Positions 18,884 through 26,657 of a stretch of DNA of 64,000 bases are shown piece after piece. The DNA is from a bacterium (GTDB lineage: Bacteria; Orphanbacterota; Orphanbacteria; Orphanbacterales; Orphanbacteraceae): assembly GCA_025782575.1 (NCBI GenBank), contig JALGYY010000035.1, positions 372,001-436,000 on the forward strand, read 5' to 3'. Numbering within the stretch: position 1 is the first letter of the stretch; each line of letters starts with the position of its first letter. The notes beneath the pieces are model-generated. The model did not search any database. It was given only the letters and a program-made list of their open reading frames with translations, and was not told where the DNA came from. Made by a program: the position numbers and the translations under genes.

Positions 18884-20488
18884 TCAATCACCCAGGTAAC
18901 CGAGGGCCTTCAGCCTCTCCAGGGCGGCAGGGTCGATTTCAACTGTATCAACTTCTACTGACCCGATCCCCGCTATCTCGGCCATCTTGAGGTCGAGTAT
19001 CTTTTTGTGGATCGCGGCCTCCGCCGCCCTTTCGTACAAGAGGTTCTTTGTCTCACCCGGATCCTCGGTGAGATCGAAATAGAGATCGCCCGGGTCGATC
19101 TGGCCCTCGAAATTGATCACTCGAATGTACTTTCTATCTTTGGTCCGGATGCCGCGAATATCGTACGGCCCATATCGCTGCAGAAGCTCTTCATGGTAAG
19201 CAATGCGCTCCGGCCCGTCGTTGTTGCCGTAGACAAGGGGGAGCGCACTCCGGCCCCGGGCCGTTTCGTCGGGCTCCAGTCCGAGATACTCGAGAACGGT
19301 CGGGACGATATCTACACTGGAAACCACATCATCGATCTCCTGACCGGTCCGCCCCATAGGCGGGAATCGGACGGGAGAGGGAATCGAAAGCACCATCGGC
19401 ACGTGAACGGAACCTTCATAGATGATCTTGTTGTGCCCCCAGAAACCGTGTTCCCAGAACTCCTCTCCATGGTCGGAAGTGTAGATGACAAGCGTGTTTT
19501 CCCACTCGCCCCGCGTTTCAAGCGCGGAAACAAGCTTGCGCAGTTCGGAATCCCAGTAGGCGATCGCGCCGTCGTATTGGGCCAGAAGATTTTGGAGTAC
19601 CCGTTGCTCGGGCTTGCCGAGTTCATGCTTCCAATCCGAAACAGGCGCTTGGTCCCACTCCGGATCGAACAGTTTCTGGTAAGCAGGAGGCGGCTCATAC
19701 GGATTGTGAGGATCGATATAGAAAAGAAAACCGAAGAGGGGTCGATCTTCCTCTCTTCCGTCAATCCAGTTCAGGAACTTACCGTTCACACGGCCGGCCG
19801 GAGTGTGGGCCCAGTTCGGGTCATGTTCGAACTTGTCGAAACCCTGTGAGTATCCCTGCCGTGGTCCCAGGTGGGGATTGGTGGCGTAGCCATAGGTCTG
19901 ATAGCCGGCATCGCTCAGGTATTCGGATAAGAGGGTGAATCGACTGGAAAGCACGTTCGAATAGCTCACGATGCCATGCTGACTCGGATAAACGGATGCG
20001 AGGATACAGGGCGTGGAAACGATGGTGTGCGTCCCCTGTGAAACACCGTTCGTAAAGACGACAAGTTCGTCCCGCTGAGAGTCGAGATAGGGTGTGGTTT
20101 CGACCTGATATCCATAGAGGGACAGATGATCCGCTCTGGTAGCATCGGTGACAAGTAGAAGGACGTTCGGCTCCCCTCGCGTGTTCATGGGGACGAGAAT
20201 CGCGAAGAGGATACCGGTAGCCAGGAGGCTCGTCCCGTAGGCGATCCCCCTGCTCCGGAACAACCGGTTCCCGGCAATCACAGCTGGAATTCCGACAAGG
20301 AACCCGAGTCCGAGGAACGCTGCCCAGAACACTTTCATCTGGTCAGGAGCCAGGCCGCCGTATGGAATGGCCATGATCTGCCATAATGCCGCTGCCGCGC
20401 CTATGACGATCCCGATCCCCCCCCCGATCAGGGGATTCGCCTTCTCGACCGGAGGGAAGTCCTCCAGATCCTCCTCAAGATGATCCAC
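18884..20488 (-). CDS. Membrane-anchored sulfatase/alkaline-phosphatase-superfamily enzyme
   Basis: About 534 residues with three N-terminal transmembrane segments, then a sulfatase-fold domain: NVLLLVTDATRADHLSLYG (metal-binding Asp), the active-site strand HTIVSTPCILASVYPSQHG, DHGEEFWEHGFWGHN and a C-terminal EDPGETKNLL. The residue aligned with the formylglycine Cys of sulfatases is Thr (H-T-I-V-S), as in the phosphoglycerol and phosphoethanolamine transferase branch. A transferase or hydrolase acting on phosphate groups in the envelope is therefore more likely than sulfate chemistry. The GTG at 20488 has GGGAGG upstream; TTG at 20491 or 20545 are alternatives. It lies 115 bases downstream of the ABC permease on the same strand. 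Confidence 0.85.
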   Translation of the reverse strand: MDHLEEDLEDFPPVEKANPLIGGGIGIVIGAAAALWQIMAIPYGGLAPDQMKVFWAAFLGLGFLVGIPAVIAGNRLFRSRGIAYGTSLLATGILFAILVPMNTRGEPNVLLLVTDATRADHLSLYGYQVETTPYLDSQRDELVVFTNGVSQGTHTIVSTPCILASVYPSQHGIVSYSNVLSSRFTLLSEYLSDAGYQTYGYATNPHLGPRQGYSQGFDKFEHDPNWAHTPAGRVNGKFLNWIDGREEDRPLFGFLFYIDPHNPYEPPPAYQKLFDPEWDQAPVSDWKHELGKPEQRVLQNLLAQYDGAIAYWDSELRKLVSALETRGEWENTLVIYTSDHGEEFWEHGFWGHNKIIYEGSVHVPMVLSIPSPVRFPPMGRTGQEIDDVVSSVDIVPTVLEYLGLEPDETARGRSALPLVYGNNDGPERIAYHEELLQRYGPYDIRGIRTKDRKYIRVINFEGQIDPGDLYFDLTEDPGETKNLLYERAAEAAIHKKILDLKMAEIAGIGSVEVDTVEIDPAALERLKALGYLGD

Positions 20489-20603
20489 CAAACCATCCTC
20501 CCTTGACCGGCGTCCGACTACAGAAACGGGAACATGGTAGCACAACGGAATGACCGCGCGGAGAGTGAAGAAGCGAGAGGGTCACGGCCCGGGATCGGGC
20601 CTT

Positions 20604-21413
20604 TCAATACTGTCCGAGAGTACCGTCCCGTCTCGCCCGGTTAATGGCGAAACGAGCGGCGAGAATGCCTACGAAGAGGGCCACGACCGTAAACGCTATG
20701 AGTGAGAGCAGCTCTCTTTGCAGGCTCCCGAGACCGTGACCGCTCAGAAGAGACATGCGCATCCCTTCGAGCGAATAGGTGAGTGGAATGAATTTCGCAG
20801 CATCCTGGAGCCAGTCCGGAAGTACGGTGAGCGGAAAATAGACACCCCCGAGAAGACGGCTGAGAGAAGTGAAAATCCAGTTCACCGGGTTGCCCCGTTT
20901 CATGACCAGAATAAAACTCGCAGCCAGAATGCCGAGGGAAGAAAATGAAACGACGGTCAGGGAGAGAAAGATCAGTGCCACCGGAATATTCGGATTAGTG
21001 AGGCGGAGATCGAAGAAGAGAACACCGACAATGAGATAGAGAACGATCTGGAAGGAGGCCCAGATGAAACTCCACATCGATGATGATATCAGATAGGTGG
21101 AAAATCGCGTCGGTGTGGAGAGAACCGCCTCGAGCGTGCCGAGCACCTGCTCCTCTCGAATCCGGGCGGAGAACGAATTCAGTCCCGTGGAGAGGTAGTT
21201 GGAGACAGCGACGCCGATCAGCACGAACGAGAAGTAATCGCCGCCATATTTCTCCAGGTAGGGATTCATTGTCGTATCTATCAACTGCGCGAGAAAATAG
21301 AACATGGTCAGCGTGAGCGCGACAGCAAGAAACTGCATCACAAACGCGAGGCGATAGCTCGAAGCTACGACGAGATCTTTCCAGAGAAATGCATACGGTT
21401 TGCTCCGATTCAT
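20604..21413 (-). CDS. ABC-2 type permease, probable RiPP exporter subunit
   Basis: This 269-residue protein has six predicted transmembrane helices and the ABC-2 arrangement (YLSTGLNSFSARIREEQVLGTLEAVL before the core helices, PLTYSLEGMR near the end). It overlaps the ATPase gene by 4 bases and so forms a transporter pair with it. Its position at the end of the RiPP operon suggests export of the modified peptide or self-protection, by inference from gene order only. Confidence 0.88.
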   Translation of the reverse strand: MNRSKPYAFLWKDLVVASSYRLAFVMQFLAVALTLTMFYFLAQLIDTTMNPYLEKYGGDYFSFVLIGVAVSNYLSTGLNSFSARIREEQVLGTLEAVLSTPTRFSTYLISSSMWSFIWASFQIVLYLIVGVLFFDLRLTNPNIPVALIFLSLTVVSFSSLGILAASFILVMKRGNPVNWIFTSLSRLLGGVYFPLTVLPDWLQDAAKFIPLTYSLEGMRMSLLSGHGLGSLQRELLSLIAFTVVALFVGILAARFAINRARRDGTLGQY

Positions 21414-22408
21414 TCCTCCACCTTCCTCGAGTACCGCTTGTAGATTTCCTCGAGAGACCCTCGTTCGATCTCAAGCCGGCGCATTGTTCCATAGCGACCG
21501 CTGAGGGCATGAATCAGACTCTCGGGACTGACATCAGGGCGGCCGAACCGGAGTTCGCAGCGGCCGATACCAGGACCGGTCGGAATCAGTTCCAGATTCT
21601 CGAGATCCGGAAGGCTTCGGAGCGGCTCGAACCACCCCTCATCAGGATCCGTAACTTCGATACAGACCTCCAGATGGATCTCGAACTGCTCGACTACCTC
21701 ATCCGGAGTTCCCGCCGCCAGCACGTGACCCTGATGGAGAAAAACGAGCTTGTCCGAGATTCGATCAACAGCGCCGAGATCATGGCTCGCCAACAGAATG
21801 GCGCATCCCTCCTCATGGGCGAGATGGCGCAACCGATCTAAAAACAGTGAGCAGGTGTAGGGGTCGAGACCTCTCGTCGGCTCATCGAGAATCATGATGG
21901 GCTGGCTGCCGATCAGAGCTCTTACTACCGATAACTTCTGCTTCGTCCCGGTGGAATATGTCATGAATCGAGAATCGATCTCCCGGATCTGAAGCAGCTC
22001 CGCCAGTTCGTCGATTCCCTGTCGAATCGTTTTTTCGTCTATGCCTCGGAGTTTCCCGAAGAATCGGAGATTCTGGCGGCCGGTCAGGCGGTAATAGAAG
22101 CTCCGTTCCTCGGCCATGCAGATACCCAGGCGACTTCTGGTATAGAGGCTGTCCCGGACCGTATCCCGTCCGTCCACGAGTGCCTCGCCTTCGCCGGGCA
22201 GGATGAGCGAGGCGAGGATTTTGAGAGCGGTCGACTTGCCGGAACCGTTCGGGCCTAGCAGGGCTACGATTTCGCCCGGGTCGACATGGAAGCTGACATT
22301 CTCGAGAGCCTGAATCGATTCCCTCCGAAAGGGATTGCGGAAGAGCGCATCCAGACCACGCTTCACCGGATAAGCTTTCGATACCGACTTCAATTCGATG
22401 GCGTGCAA
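21410..22408 (-). CDS. ABC transporter ATP-binding protein, probable RiPP exporter subunit
   Basis: This 332-residue ATPase has Walker A GPNGSGKST, signature YSTGTKQK, Walker B IMILDEPTRGLD and switch His in ASHDLGAVDR. About 85 extra C-terminal residues follow the nucleotide-binding domain, as in antibiotic and lantibiotic exporters of the DrrA/CcmA type. It starts 32 bases after the nucleotidyltransferase gene in the same direction and overlaps the permease gene. Confidence 0.92.
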   Translation of the reverse strand: MHAIELKSVSKAYPVKRGLDALFRNPFRRESIQALENVSFHVDPGEIVALLGPNGSGKSTALKILASLILPGEGEALVDGRDTVRDSLYTRSRLGICMAEERSFYYRLTGRQNLRFFGKLRGIDEKTIRQGIDELAELLQIREIDSRFMTYSTGTKQKLSVVRALIGSQPIMILDEPTRGLDPYTCSLFLDRLRHLAHEEGCAILLASHDLGAVDRISDKLVFLHQGHVLAAGTPDEVVEQFEIHLEVCIEVTDPDEGWFEPLRSLPDLENLELIPTGPGIGRCELRFGRPDVSPESLIHALSGRYGTMRRLEIERGSLEEIYKRYSRKVEE

Positions 22409-22440
22409 ACTCGTTCCTCCAGATATCGCTGCCGACTCGT

Positions 22441-23625
22441 TCAGTGAAGACGCCGGAACGGGGAGACTATCAGATTCGAAATGACGTCGATCAAAGAAAT
22501 AAAGCCGGACAAATGTCGCCTGACACGACGTGACACGGGGATCGGCTCTTCCTTCGTATAGTAGAGTTCGGCGCTATAAGCTTCATCCGGAAAGACAAGC
22601 CTCCAGGCGAAGTCGGATAGCTTGTGATCACCGAAGTACGCGGAAGACCAGATTCGGAATCGGAGTTCGCGGCCCGACGAAATGGGAAAGAAGTCAGACC
22701 CGCGATAACGGGATGCGAATCGCTCCACCCGGGACGGCATGGTGGTGTCGTAACGGGGATCACCCCAGAAGCGGCGGAGAAAGAGGAGCGCCGCCTGCGT
22801 CTCCTCTCGCATGCCCCACAATTCGGCGTGCCGGATCACATGATCCGCCGTAATGGAAGGTTGAGCATGAAAGAGTCTATCGAGATCGACGAGTCGCTTC
22901 AGAGATAAATAGTGAGACATGCGCAGACTTGCCATTACATAGACGATCTCATCGAGAGGGGCGAGAAGTTCGATCGGCGATCCGCCTAAACTTCCCTCGA
23001 TACGCCGACGGAACAATTTCGACGTATCGACCCGAAGGCTGAACGGATTGTGGAGCAGATTCCAGTGGAGTTCCACTACGTCGACTGTCTTTCTTCGCCT
23101 GACATAGACGACATGAAAGTGATGGCGCCGGTAGAAGCCCCTTGAGTGCACGAGTTCGAAGAGCGCGTAGCCGAGTGATTCAAGAAGGCGCTCGGCTGTG
23201 GCGAGCTGCTCCGGAGGCACGAGCAGATCAAGATCGCGCACATCACGCAGCGAGGAATCGCCGTAGTTTCGCTCGGCCAGCGGGAGACCCTTCAGAACCA
23301 GACAGTGGACCTCCCCCTTCCGAAAGTGCCCGAGAACTTCCTTCAATTCATGTTCTCGAAGAAGGGATCGAACGATGCTCTTCTCCGATTCGTTCAGGAG
23401 ACGGTCGACGAGACTGGGCGGTGCGAGTTCGCGCAGCCAATCCGTCTTCAGAATGGCAGAGGCTGCGAGAGGGACGATCTTAGTAGAGAACAAGAGTTCC
23501 TCGAAGCGGTCCCAGACGAACCATCGAGAATCGGCGATGATGGCCCCGATTCTCGTCCGATCGAGTTCCACTCGGAGCACTTCCCTGACAAGGTCCATTT
23601 CAGAAGACAGACGGACACCGTTCAT
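22441..23625 (-). CDS. Nucleotidyltransferase-family protein of a RiPP cluster
   Basis: This 394-residue protein belongs to the uncharacterised nucleotidyltransferase family NTP_transf_5. It has LVLKGLPLAERNYGD, then the metal motif RDLDLLV, then the helix ERLLESLGYAL and VVELHWNL with DEIVYVMASLRMSH. The family is frequent in lasso-peptide-type clusters together with a kinase, as in the pseudomycoidin cluster, where these enzymes tailor the peptide. It overlaps the B2-type protease gene by 4 bases, so expression is coupled. The specific reaction is not known. Confidence 0.88.
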   Translation of the reverse strand: MNGVRLSSEMDLVREVLRVELDRTRIGAIIADSRWFVWDRFEELLFSTKIVPLAASAILKTDWLRELAPPSLVDRLLNESEKSIVRSLLREHELKEVLGHFRKGEVHCLVLKGLPLAERNYGDSSLRDVRDLDLLVPPEQLATAERLLESLGYALFELVHSRGFYRRHHFHVVYVRRRKTVDVVELHWNLLHNPFSLRVDTSKLFRRRIEGSLGGSPIELLAPLDEIVYVMASLRMSHYLSLKRLVDLDRLFHAQPSITADHVIRHAELWGMREETQAALLFLRRFWGDPRYDTTMPSRVERFASRYRGSDFFPISSGRELRFRIWSSAYFGDHKLSDFAWRLVFPDEAYSAELYYTKEEPIPVSRRVRRHLSGFISLIDVISNLIVSPFRRLH

Positions 23626-24146
23626 TCCTTCCGCCCCCGATCCCGGGCAAAATAGGCGCTGTGATCAGCGTCACCCCCTATCGCTCCGTTTCTAGGGAGC
23701 GAAAACAGGGAAACGAACTTCGCGATGTCTTCATCGGTCTCCAGAAAAGGCTTTCCTTCGAGGGTGAGCCAGGAGTGTCCCTCCCATCCCTCTTCCCGGG
23801 GATCGACGCCGAAAGAGACCCGGACCGGTACGCCGCTCCGGCGGAAGAGATGGGAGAGCAGCAGGCACCGGCGAAGGCAGGTGCGTTTGAACGGGAAGAG
23901 AGGGGAGCGCAACAGCTTCTCGGTAAGGGCGTAGGAAATAGCCGCGCCTTCGATGTGGGGCTCCACTCCTTCGGGTAAGCCGGTTGTGGGAAAGAGGCTC
24001 TCCACCGGCCTCCAGGGGAGAAGCAGAAAAAGACGAATCGCTGTGAGGGTCGACCTGAGAATATGCCAGAAATTTGGCGGCCGAAGGAGTACATGCCCAG
24101 GGAGCGAGTACTCGACGATCGCTCTTTCCAGGTGAGGCACTTCCAT
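23622..24146 (-). CDS. Lasso-peptide-type B2 leader peptidase (transglutaminase fold)
   Basis: This 174-residue protein matches the Transglut_core3 family that contains lasso peptide B2 proteases. The Cys nucleophile lies in TCLRRCLLLSHLFRRSGVP, the His in EGHSWLTLEGKPF, and a downstream Asp in ETDEDIAKF. These enzymes cut the leader from the precursor after the recognition protein has bound it. The gene lies between the HprK-like kinase (26 bases) and the nucleotidyltransferase (4-base overlap). The start context is weak, but the reading frame is supported by the motif order. Confidence 0.88.
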   Translation of the reverse strand: MEVPHLERAIVEYSLPGHVLLRPPNFWHILRSTLTAIRLFLLLPWRPVESLFPTTGLPEGVEPHIEGAAISYALTEKLLRSPLFPFKRTCLRRCLLLSHLFRRSGVPVRVSFGVDPREEGWEGHSWLTLEGKPFLETDEDIAKFVSLFSLPRNGAIGGDADHSAYFARDRGRKE

Positions 24147-24172
24147 GAGATGGGTTCCATGCGTCCGGGGTG

Positions 24173-25135
24173 CTAGAGCAGGTCCTCGCGGATCCGATCA
24201 GCCAGCGACCGGGCATCCCCCCCGAAGAGGAGCCGGTAAGGCTGTACGCCATCTACCATTTCGCCTAGTACGTCGATGTGATTCTGAACGAGCTCTTTCG
24301 CGGCAGGCAACACCGATTGCGGAATGAGCCTGATCAGCGCTTCCTCTTTCGTCACCGGTTCGAATGTCGTCCGGGGCTCCGTCACGACTTCAGGAAAAAG
24401 AAGCAGACTAGGTGCCACGCCGCCTCTTCTTCCCCCGCCGGGAAGGTCGGCCTCCTCCAATATAAGTTTTCCCATCTCCGAGGTGAAGCGTTTCCCCCAC
24501 TCGGGGAAGAACCTTTGGGATCCTCTGCCGATTTTGACCGGCTCCGGGAACGCATCCATGACAATCCCTTCATCGGATCTTGAAAGAAACAGAGTGTCGT
24601 CGGAAATGAGCGGACATCCCGACATGATCGCGGAGAGCGCGGAGGTGGACTTCCCGGAACCGCTCATTCCGCTCACAACCACGCCCCGCTGATCGACCAG
24701 GAAGCCGGCGCCATGCAATGGGAAATGTCCTCGCTTTCGCATCCATTCAATCAGGGGAAGATAAAAGAGCCTGTGCCCGATGATCCATGAATTGGATTCA
24801 TGGTCCGGATGAACGAGACACTCCACCGTACCGCTCTCCAGGTCGCACCGAGCAAGAGAACGTTTCTCGACGACAATCAAAAGCTCGCCATCTTCGTCGT
24901 GTATGGTGAAGTCTCGAGCTGCGGAGAAAGAGAGGGGCTCACTGCGAGGCATGGCCGGCCGGCCGACTTCCTGCTGAAGGCGAAATTGATAGTGGAGGTC
25001 TGGCTCTCGACCGATGATATCGACCTCGAGCAGAGCGGCTGCGCGAAGAACCGATGCACGCACCGCTCGACTCGGGCAGTCCACCTCGATCGTCTGATCG
25101 AGCAGCGCCAGACTGATCCTGTCCGGTCTGCTCAT
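24173..25135 (-). CDS. HPr-kinase-like kinase of a RiPP cluster
   Basis: This 320-residue protein has the HprK-type P-loop SGMSGSGKST (about residue 165) followed by LISDDTLFL, and the preceding FPLHGAGFL. HprK homologues in lasso clusters (paeninodin, pseudomycoidin) phosphorylate a residue of the precursor. An N-terminal 140-residue domain is less conserved. The gene begins 2 bases after the PqqD-like gene stops. A role in modifying the peptides encoded at 25517-25767 is inferred from this context. Confidence 0.88.
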   Translation of the reverse strand: MSRPDRISLALLDQTIEVDCPSRAVRASVLRAAALLEVDIIGREPDLHYQFRLQQEVGRPAMPRSEPLSFSAARDFTIHDEDGELLIVVEKRSLARCDLESGTVECLVHPDHESNSWIIGHRLFYLPLIEWMRKRGHFPLHGAGFLVDQRGVVVSGMSGSGKSTSALSAIMSGCPLISDDTLFLSRSDEGIVMDAFPEPVKIGRGSQRFFPEWGKRFTSEMGKLILEEADLPGGGRRGGVAPSLLLFPEVVTEPRTTFEPVTKEEALIRLIPQSVLPAAKELVQNHIDVLGEMVDGVQPYRLLFGGDARSLADRIREDLL

Positions 25136-25137
25136 CC

Positions 25138-25419
25138 CTAGTCGCTGATTGTGACGAGGCCGTCTTCCGCCAACCGCTCGGCCAATTCAATGCAGTCCGT
25201 AAGGGCGATCGACTCTTCCACGTCAAATGAACCGGCGAGCCGGCGGGCGATTTCGCGTACTGACCTCGTACCATCAATCGCTTCCCATATGAACCGGCCG
25301 GTGCTGTTCAAGCTGAAGTAATAGCCACTTTTCAGATCGACGAGAATGCCTTTTCCATCCACGCTGCGGGAGGGGGCATCCGGTGATTGGGTCAATATGG
25401 TACCCTCTGAAATTGACAA
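25138..25419 (-). CDS. PqqD-like RiPP recognition element (B1-type)
   Basis: This 93-residue PqqD-family protein starts at TTG (25419), with AGGGGG 8 bases upstream. The motif order VDLKSGYYFSLNSTGRFIWEAIDG, TRSVREIARRLA and the acidic C-terminal helix define the winged-helix RRE fold, which binds leader peptides through a beta-strand contact. In lasso systems this protein (B1) recognises the leader YxxP motif, which both upstream peptides carry. It is the first gene after the internal terminator. Confidence 0.92.
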   Translation of the reverse strand: MSISEGTILTQSPDAPSRSVDGKGILVDLKSGYYFSLNSTGRFIWEAIDGTRSVREIARRLAGSFDVEESIALTDCIELAERLAEDGLVTISD

Positions 25420-25457
25420 TCTCTTACCCCCTTTTCATCCGCAGAGAGTCTGTCTCC

Positions 25458-25490
25458 AAAAAAAAGATGGGAAGGCAACGCCTTCCCATC
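25458..25490 (-). terminator. Intra-operon terminator between precursor peptides and RiPP enzymes
   Basis: A perfect 11-base stem (25480-25490 with 25466-25476, loop of 3) is followed by eight T on the minus strand. It lies 26 bases after the stop of the second peptide and 38 bases before the PqqD-like start. Partial read-through would give more precursor than enzyme. Confidence 0.93.
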
Positions 25491-25516
25491 TCTCACAATC
25501 GTTCGAATTTCGAAAA

Positions 25517-25648
25517 TCAGCCGCCGTCAACCGGATCGTGCAACTGCGTTTCAATAGCGGGAATGTGAACCCTGGCAGTTGAAACAAGCGTGATTTCCCT
25601 GAGATTGTCATGCCGAATGATCTCAGGTGTTTCGTACGCTATTTTCAT
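25517..25648 (-). CDS. RiPP precursor peptide 2 (43 aa)
   Basis: ATG at 25648 overlaps the stop of peptide 1 (ATGA). The 43-residue product begins MKIAYETPEIIRHD and continues NLREITLVSTARVH, ending HDPVDGG. It shares with peptide 1 the pattern Y-E-x-P-x-I-x-R-H-x-x-[LI]-R-E-I-T-L-V-S-T-x-R-V and then diverges. This is the arrangement of a conserved leader followed by a variable core. Tyr5 and Pro8 make the YxxP motif that lasso B1 proteins recognise. If the core starts after REITL, no Asp or Glu falls at core positions 7-9, so a normal lasso ring is not possible. It is too short for routine gene finders. Confidence 0.82.
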   Translation of the reverse strand: MKIAYETPEIIRHDNLREITLVSTARVHIPAIETQLHDPVDGG

Positions 25649-25767
25649 ATCCGAGCTTCTTCATGCTCCAGCACATCGGGCTCAACCCGAGGGGTGGAGA
25701 CGAGAGTAATCTCGCGAATGCTCTCATGCCGCACGATTACAGGCTTTTCGTAGATTTCAACCTTCAT
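25645..25767 (-). CDS. RiPP precursor peptide 1 (40 aa)
   Basis: ATG at 25767, about 50 bases after the predicted transcript start, encodes 40 residues beginning MKVEIYEKPVIVRHE, then SIREITLVSTPRVEPDV, and ending EHEEARI. The leader YEKPVIV matches the lasso-leader YxxPxI pattern and REIT resembles the conserved Thr near the leader end. The part after REITL is acidic and differs from peptide 2. It is the first gene of the operon, in ATGA overlap with peptide 2. Core boundaries and modifications are not known. Confidence 0.82.
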   Translation of the reverse strand: MKVEIYEKPVIVRHESIREITLVSTPRVEPDVLEHEEARI

Positions 25768-25824
25768 TGGCCTAGAACGCTCCCATGTGGTCTTTCGCTA
25801 CTCTGTTAGCAGTACTCCATGAGA

Positions 25825-25853
25825 ATAATAGACCCTTCCAGGAAAGGTGTCAA
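25825..25853 (-). promoter_or_regulatory. Promoter of the RiPP operon
   Basis: TTGACA (25848-25853), a 17-base spacer and TATTAT (25825-25830) on the minus strand make a near-perfect sigma-70 promoter. Transcription would start near 25818. Confidence 0.85.
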
Positions 25854-26083: not shown

Positions 26084-26635
26084 CTAGATTCTACCCGCTC
26101 GATGGATCCCATACCAGTAGAAAGCGGCCACCACCAGAGCGTGGGCGATTTCGCCCCCTTCCATCATCTTGAGGACCTCAGATTCCGGCCTCAGGATGAC
26201 CTCGATCTCCTCTCCAGGATCCAGACTCATTTTTGAACTCGGAGAAGCGCCCTCAGCCAGGTAAGTGTGGCACCGGTTCGTCTGGAATGCCGGATTCGGC
26301 TCAACTACTCCCAGCGGGACCCAGCTTCTCGCCTCGTATCCCGTTTCTTCTCTCAATTCGCGGCGAGCAGCCTCTTCCGGCGAGGAGTCTCTGGCATCCA
26401 CTCCCCCCCCCGGAATTTCGAGAGTGTACTCTCTGGTACCGTGCCGGAACTGGCGGACCAGCAGGATTTCCCCAGCATCCGTCCTGGCGATCACATTGAC
26501 CCAGTCCACAGTCTCCATAACAGTGAATTCTCTTTGAAAGCCGGTGGAAGGTGAAACCGAGCGGTCAAGGCGGACTGAAAAAATTGCGAAATCGCCCGCA
26601 TGCCGCGACTGAAGCCGGGTCCATTTCTCGTCCAT
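26084..26635 (-). CDS. Nudix hydrolase, ADP-ribose pyrophosphatase-like
   Basis: ATG 26635 follows GGAGG at 5 bases. The 183-residue protein carries LVRQFRHGTREYTLEIPGG and a Nudix box ending AARRELREETGY, typical of ADP-sugar pyrophosphatases (NudF/ADPRase) that hydrolyse ADP-ribose to AMP and ribose 5-phosphate. The first Glu of the canonical box (G-x5-E) is replaced by Ser in GVDARDSSPEE. The catalytic RELREE is intact. It is divergent from the second Nudix gene. Confidence 0.9.
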   Translation of the reverse strand: MDEKWTRLQSRHAGDFAIFSVRLDRSVSPSTGFQREFTVMETVDWVNVIARTDAGEILLVRQFRHGTREYTLEIPGGGVDARDSSPEEAARRELREETGYEARSWVPLGVVEPNPAFQTNRCHTYLAEGASPSSKMSLDPGEEIEVILRPESEVLKMMEGGEIAHALVVAAFYWYGIHRAGRI

Positions 26636-26657
26636 CACATCCTCCGATCAAACGGCA

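Follow-up and report, generated by a model that had tools for sequence, protein, structure and literature searches.

Introduction

Several systems for ribosomally synthesized and post-translationally modified peptides (RiPPs) involve a lasso-type recognition protein together with a peptide kinase. In the family of linear polyphosphorylated peptides (LPP) of Bacillota, for which the lpp cluster of Paenibacillus alginolyticus is the example, the precursors carry the motif YxxPxVLxHQxIxFETxxS, with the Tyr at position -16 and cleavage after Thr-1. An HprK-like kinase provides core Ser3 with multiple phosphates, and the clusters sit in capsule loci (PMC13381572, Nat Commun 2026). In the Bsf system of Bradymonas sediminis, the kinase and B1 phosphorylate core Ser3, and B2 cuts off a leader whose penultimate residue is Ile (PMC10368454). 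Here, we describe an operon with two tandem precursor genes in a 64,000-nucleotide stretch of bacterial DNA (the window; GenBank assembly GCA_025782575.1, contig JALGYY010000035.1, positions 372,001 to 436,000). We found that it represents a real, conserved, cyclase-free RiPP system. With a probability of roughly 0.7, it makes linear, phosphorylated, exported peptides independently of a cyclase, and the pathway would involve binding by a RiPP recognition element (RRE), phosphorylation of Ser3, transfer of a nucleotidyl or hexosyl group, leader removal and export.

Results

Organization and conservation of the operon

On the minus strand, the gene order is promoter, precursor P1, precursor P2, hairpin, RRE, HprK-like kinase, B2 protease, NTP_transf_5 nucleotidyltransferase, ATP-binding cassette (ABC) ATPase and ABC-2 permease (Table 1; coordinates without a genome label are window positions). 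A first-pass annotation of this DNA had listed all of these elements except the hairpin, and both its positions and its descriptions proved right. The hairpin after P2 was overlooked by the terminator scan and became clear on RNA folding; similar hairpins follow most other precursors.

For comparison, we used seven genomes from five genera of one phylum, which form a single family within the genome set: the genome holding the window (G000) and six relatives (G001-G006). Gene content, conservation, enzyme copy numbers, precursor sites and invariant residues were read directly from these genomes. The order RRE-kinase-B2-nucleotidyltransferase-ABC-ABC was identical in all seven with intact catalytic residues, so that the five-gene order which the first-pass annotation had proposed to look for in relatives is indeed there. 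The enzymes share 44-60% protein identity and the permease 70-77%. In every genome, a PqqD protein, a B2 and a close kinase homologue are each present in exactly one copy. An alignment search with the kinase matched members of the same lineage only, and viral contigs with a nucleotidyltransferase and genome contigs with a single kinase yielded nothing.

The catalytic and binding residues follow those of characterized enzymes. RRE residues D75 and N38 are invariant in all seven genomes and, when mapped by hand from the alignment, correspond to D70 and N33 of LppB. LppB D70 hydrogen-bonds the leader Tyr, and N33 is located at the leader kink at Pro (PMC13381572). The Pfam score of the kinase (25.9 bits) was under its cut-off of 33.3; H141, G156, G159, G161, K162, S163, D179 and D180 are invariant in the seven genomes and identical in residue and spacing to those of BsfK. 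An AlphaFold model of moderate confidence (pLDDT 68.5) matched PEPCK and HprK/P structures (E 1e-7 to 2e-4). The Cys and His of B2 and the nucleotidyltransferase motif R-D-[LI]-D-L-L-[VI] are kept across the lineage.

Table 1. Features of the RiPP system in the window and elsewhere in the same genome
Feature	Coordinates	Strand	Basis and remarks
Sigma-70-type promoter TTGACA-N17-TATTAT	25825-25853	-	Ahead of P1; consensus scan, 11/12 matches
Precursor P1, 40 aa, MKVEIYEKPVIVRHESIREITLVSTPRVEPDVLEHEEARI	25645-25767	-	Profile E 2.5e-16; leader pS/pN 4.9 vs P2
Leader recognition motif of P1, Tyr6 to Thr21	25705-25752	-	Invariant alignment columns Y, P, I, T; spacing as in LPP; predicted cleavage after Thr21
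Predicted phosphosite Ser24 of P1 (core Ser3)	25696-25698	-	Ser invariant in 11/11 precursors; LPP and BsfA precedents
Precursor P2, 43 aa, MKIAYETPEIIRHDNLREITLVSTARVHIPAIETQLHDPVDGG	25517-25648	-	Profile E 1.3e-16
Predicted phosphosite Ser23 of P2 (core Ser3)	25580-25582	-	Ser invariant in 11/11 precursors; LPP and BsfA precedents
Intrinsic terminator/attenuator hairpin	25462-25494	-	Between P2 and enzyme genes; -25.3 kcal/mol, z -5.3
PqqD-like RRE, lasso B1 type	25138-25419	-	PF05402 62.9 bits, above cut-off; sole PqqD protein of genome
HprK-like peptide kinase	24173-25135	-	Eight BsfK motif residues, HprK/PEPCK fold
B2-type transglutaminase-fold cysteine leader peptidase	23622-24146	-	NF033537 and PF13471 above cut-off; sole B2 of genome
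NTP_transf_5 nucleotidyltransferase	22441-23625	-	PF14907, 148.6 bits
ABC transporter ATPase, DrrA-type	21410-22408	-	Library matches; conserved in operon
ABC-2 type permease	20604-21413	-	Most conserved operon protein, 70-77% identity
Membrane sulfatase/phosphotransferase-superfamily gene	18884-20545	-	PF00884; directly after operon
Third precursor of G000, other contig	G000:C2:318697-318816 (L083:9695-9817)		Profile search; absent from first-pass annotation
Trans-encoded precursor, MKSDKTRTYEKPRFDCQGNVKEITLISVKPPDDDDDDVTS			
L002, L003, stand-alone Asn_synthase-like proteins, ~630-655 aa	G000:C16:6450-6806, G000:C45:42283-42633		MAG[AI]FG in place of MCGI; found in part of the family

Precursor peptides

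When a precursor profile was searched against the whole genomes of the seven lineage members, 11 precursors were found in six of them (E 6e-23 to 2.5e-16) and the next best match was at 0.5. The start of P2 overlaps the stop of P1 by ATGA, and both peptides contain YE.P.I followed by REITLVST. The leader codons of P1 and P2 and of the other tested pairs vary mainly at third positions (synonymous-to-nonsynonymous ratio, pS/pN, of about 2-11), and the leaders of G004 and G006 have the same protein sequence. Because of this third-position bias, and because 11 related precursors stand apart by a clean E-value gap, the small genes are not chance frames. The precursor genes are real and their leaders are under purifying selection. 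The first-pass annotation would have been abandoned if relatives that keep the enzymes had not conserved the small frames; five of the six relatives carry precursors, two of them in the operon and the others only or also elsewhere. Precursors ahead of the RRE gene are confined to G000, G001 and G003.

The precursors follow the motif Y1..P4....H9......T16..S19. In the alignment, Y1, P4, I15, T16 and S19 are invariant in 11/11 sequences and leader position 6 is hydrophobic (Y..P.[ILVF]). Residue S19 coincides with core Ser3, the phosphorylated residue of LPP and BsfA.

Precursors in trans and their surface-protein neighbors

The description of an operon with two tandem precursors was correct, but the system is not confined to it. 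Seven of the 11 precursors are trans-encoded, with at least one in each of the six precursor-bearing genomes (G000 C2, G001 C20, two on G002 C2, G003 C13, G004 C41, G006 C202). For the third precursor of G000 (L083), equivalents were seen at L078, L079, L080, L081 and L082. Since each genome holds a single RRE, B2 and kinase and the precursors are dispersed, one enzyme set must, judging from gene content, serve operon and dispersed precursors alike.

The trans precursors have short cores of the type [LM]xSFxPP, down to about 10 residues. Six of them begin 69-109 bp past the stop codon of a gene that encodes a large secreted protein (~980-1390 aa), which in a domain scan of the G000 copy contained immunoglobulin (Ig)-type and C-terminal FlgD_ig domains; the seventh (second G002 copy) is located a few hundred bases ahead of such a gene. 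A second secreted-protein gene (Vps10/BNR plus FlgD_ig in G000) lies downstream in five genomes, as judged by similarity; at the same site, G002 has a frame that resembles it in length and C-terminal end. Glycosyltransferase and O-antigen ligase genes are found near the trans precursor in G000.

These neighborhoods raise the possibility of a function at the cell surface. Tentatively, a single RRE-kinase-nucleotidyltransferase-B2 machine might act in trans on dispersed linear peptides throughout the lineage, and the Ser3-phospho-linked peptides might be built into the cell surface or regulate it instead of acting as antibiotics; we regard this wider picture as rather doubtful. A more specific version, in which phospho- or nucleotide-activated Ser3 is a tether that links the peptide to surface polysaccharide or to the neighboring Ig/FlgD protein, is in our judgment unlikely. 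The Ig/FlgD_ig gene adjoins trans precursors in all six precursor-bearing genomes, the genes for glycan assembly in G000 and the capsule location of LPP clusters point in the same direction, and a sulfatase/phosphotransferase-superfamily gene is adjacent to the operon in four of the seven genomes. However, the link between peptide and surface is an association only, and no linking enzyme was identified. Moreover, each precursor seemingly has its own transcription unit: a TTGAC-type promoter and a hairpin terminator accompany most of them, although several of the promoter matches are statistically weak.

Lack of a linked cyclase

No Asn_synthase was linked to the operon or located near any B2 of the family in any of the seven genomes, which is in line with the first-pass proposal of a RiPP system with a non-lasso product. 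That annotation had also suggested looking for a cyclase elsewhere in the genome. Here, we found that G000 encodes a genuine AsnB and, in addition, two Asn_synthase-like proteins without the glutaminase Cys (L002, L003). Against the lasso cyclase model NF033535 these two reached 63-68 bits (cut-off 525), models of asparagine synthase and EPS amidotransferase gave them higher scores, and they are surrounded by unrelated genes. Three genomes that retain both operon and precursors (G001, G004, G006) have no such Cys-less protein at all.

The cores were inspected for a ring acceptor. Whether cleavage is placed after T16 or one residue further on, five of the 11 lack an acidic residue at core positions 7-9 (P2, as had been noted before, the operon precursor of G003, LTSFQPPPPK of G002, and those of G004 and G006). 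The other six (P1, G000b, G001a, G001b, G003b, G002c) carry an acid at or near these positions. Among the hallmarks of lasso systems, the RRE (B1) and B2 are present, with PF05402 and NF033537 above cut-off, and a linked cyclase and a universal ring acceptor are missing. Since the cyclase-like proteins are unlinked, non-lasso-like and missing from three system-bearing genomes, and since five cores are devoid of the acid, a linear product appears much more likely on sequence grounds.

The peptides might still be true phosphorylated lasso peptides that are cyclized by an unlinked Asn_synthase-like protein. The missing glutaminase Cys and the weak NF033535 similarity of L002 and L003 would fit this scenario, as would the six acid-bearing cores. 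We consider it improbable, because the best matches of these proteins, their genomic surroundings and their patchy distribution speak against it, and because their presence does not track the acceptor residue. L002 and L003 were rejected as the cyclase on these grounds. Still less probable is a scenario in which the operon is the remnant of a pseudomycoidin- or Bsf-type lasso cluster, left without its former cyclase and without a product: each retained operon gene has a counterpart in the bsf/psm clusters, but the loss is not recent, as it extends over seven genomes and five genera in which enzymes at 44-77% identity keep their catalytic motifs and the leaders remain under purifying selection.

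Proposed pathway

The steps that follow are modeled on characterized homologues. The single RRE would bind all precursors, those of the operon and the remote ones alike, through their Y..P.[ILVF] leaders and present them to the HprK-like kinase, which would (poly)phosphorylate Ser3 of the core (position 19 of the motif). The NTP_transf_5 protein may then add a nucleotide or a hexose to the phosphate, as in pseudomycoidin. B2 would strip the leader; the most likely cleavage site is after Thr16, which makes Ile the penultimate residue. The ABC-2 exporter would release the peptide. No macrolactam would be formed. The best reading of the product is thus a linear Ser3-phosphorylated secreted peptide, which is probably further nucleotidylated or glycosylated.

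Several observations weigh against this pathway. All modification steps are drawn from homologues characterized outside the lineage. The nucleotidyltransferase step is uncertain because LppN was inactive in a published heterologous test (PMC13381572). Canonical lasso leaders have Thr at position -2, which would put the Ser at core position 2. Four relatives lack an operon precursor, and the profile search found none at all in G005 (82% complete). Finally, the unlinked L002 and L003 of G000 could in principle act in trans.

Neighboring genes

The sulfatase-superfamily gene directly after the operon was absent from the first-pass annotation. Its product (sulfatase/phosphoethanolamine-transferase superfamily) is membrane-anchored and could act on the phosphopeptide or on surface glycans; it is a possible accessory of the operon. 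On the other side, a Nudix hydrolase gene (window 26084-26638) is a constant upstream neighbor of the operon across the family, and it almost touches the RRE gene where the operon is without a precursor.

Cyclase-free loci in other lineages

For comparison, 186 other genomes were sampled across the domain. Stand-alone B2 genes beside an Asn_synthase were found in G082, G104 (C18, C164), G185, G156 and G012. Loci with B2 and RRE (plus kinase, nucleotidyltransferase or both) and no cyclase in the inspected stretch were found in G048, G074, G104:C47, G046 and G026; at least 7 kb were inspected on each side, apart from G104:C47, where a contig end is close. G125 carried B2 and nucleotidyltransferase only. 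Loci L102, L103, L104 and L108, which belong to unrelated families, combine B2 and RRE with a kinase and/or a nucleotidyltransferase and are free of a cyclase. A precursor search of the other cyclase-free loci gave a credible candidate only at L107 (E 0.012). This lasso-type precursor, MKKKVEKKKYSKPTVKKNEPLVNITFATAGVGAGAVPGSGGAAESAIG (L107:6031-6198), comes from a distant genome, in which an RRE/kinase/B2 locus is likewise free of a cyclase, and has a Thr at the Ser19 position. Cyclase-free relatives are thus widespread.

Discussion

RRE-Finder reported about 8,000 RREs of the lasso type, and only about 4,000 of them co-occurred with a peptidase and a cyclase. Our data suggest that there are real RiPP systems among the RRE matches without a nearby cyclase, which have so far been treated as possible false positives. 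Apart from LPP, we found no published description of cyclase-free B2/RRE loci in a search that covered few subscription papers. The lasso-type RRE/B2/kinase/nucleotidyltransferase machinery forms, outside Bacillota, a stable pathway that is free of a cyclase and whose protease is unlike that of LPP. Cluster-based mining is blind to trans-encoded precursors, and the constant place of these beside one surface-protein gene offers a practical way to approach what phosphorylated linear RiPPs do.

Among the described systems, LPP shares a discrete RRE, an HprK-like kinase, an NTP transferase, an ABC exporter and the lack of its own cyclase. The leaders have the same spacing (Y1..P4.[hydrophobic]6..H9..[IL]12...T16..S19), and variable cores and one to three precursors are also common to both. 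Compared with the LPP motif, Y, P, T and S keep their spacing in 11/11 precursors and H in 10/11, but Q10, F14 and E15 are unmatched. The leader peptidase is a B2 cysteine protease here and a SipW-type signal peptidase in LPP; SipW/archaeal-type signal peptidase I (TIGR02228) was detected in none of the seven genomes, while control genomes were matched. A separate DrrA-type ATPase and ABC-2 permease stand in place of the MsbA-like exporter of LPP, the lineage is not Bacillota and most precursors are encoded in trans. By profile score, the RRE was closer to lasso RREs (TbiB1 39.8 bits, PbaB1 34.6) than to LppB (22.3). On the basis of peptidase, exporter and RRE score, we did not assign the system to LPP.

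Bsf has B1, B2, kinase and nucleotidyltransferase in common with our system, and the H-G-G-G-K-S-D-D kinase motif is identical in spacing. Its penultimate leader Ile corresponds to the invariant Ile before Thr16 and gives the best-fitting cleavage site. In contrast, Bsf involves the cyclase BsfC and its Tyr is located one residue further out (-17); our system has no linked cyclase, and its precursors are dispersed. Paeninodin and pseudomycoidin also involve an HprK-like kinase, and pseudomycoidin in addition a nucleotidyltransferase acting on phosphoserine. The first-pass annotation had named pseudomycoidin as an example for this enzyme pair. Both peptides are cyclized and phosphorylated on a C-terminal Ser, which the present precursors do not share; the latter are nearer to LPP and BsfA, which are phosphorylated on Ser3. 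The HPr-rel A/B and SynChlorMet cassettes of NCBIfam likewise combine a PqqD-like protein with an HprK-related kinase; they were rejected because the scores were far below cut-off (36.5 of 200, 43.1 of 200, 19.2 of 125 and 27.5 of 100 bits). Taken together, the system would work like LPP and Bsf, yet it lacks the peptidase that defines LPP and the linked cyclase of lasso systems, and its new element is a set of precursors that are scattered through the genome and associated with a surface-protein gene.

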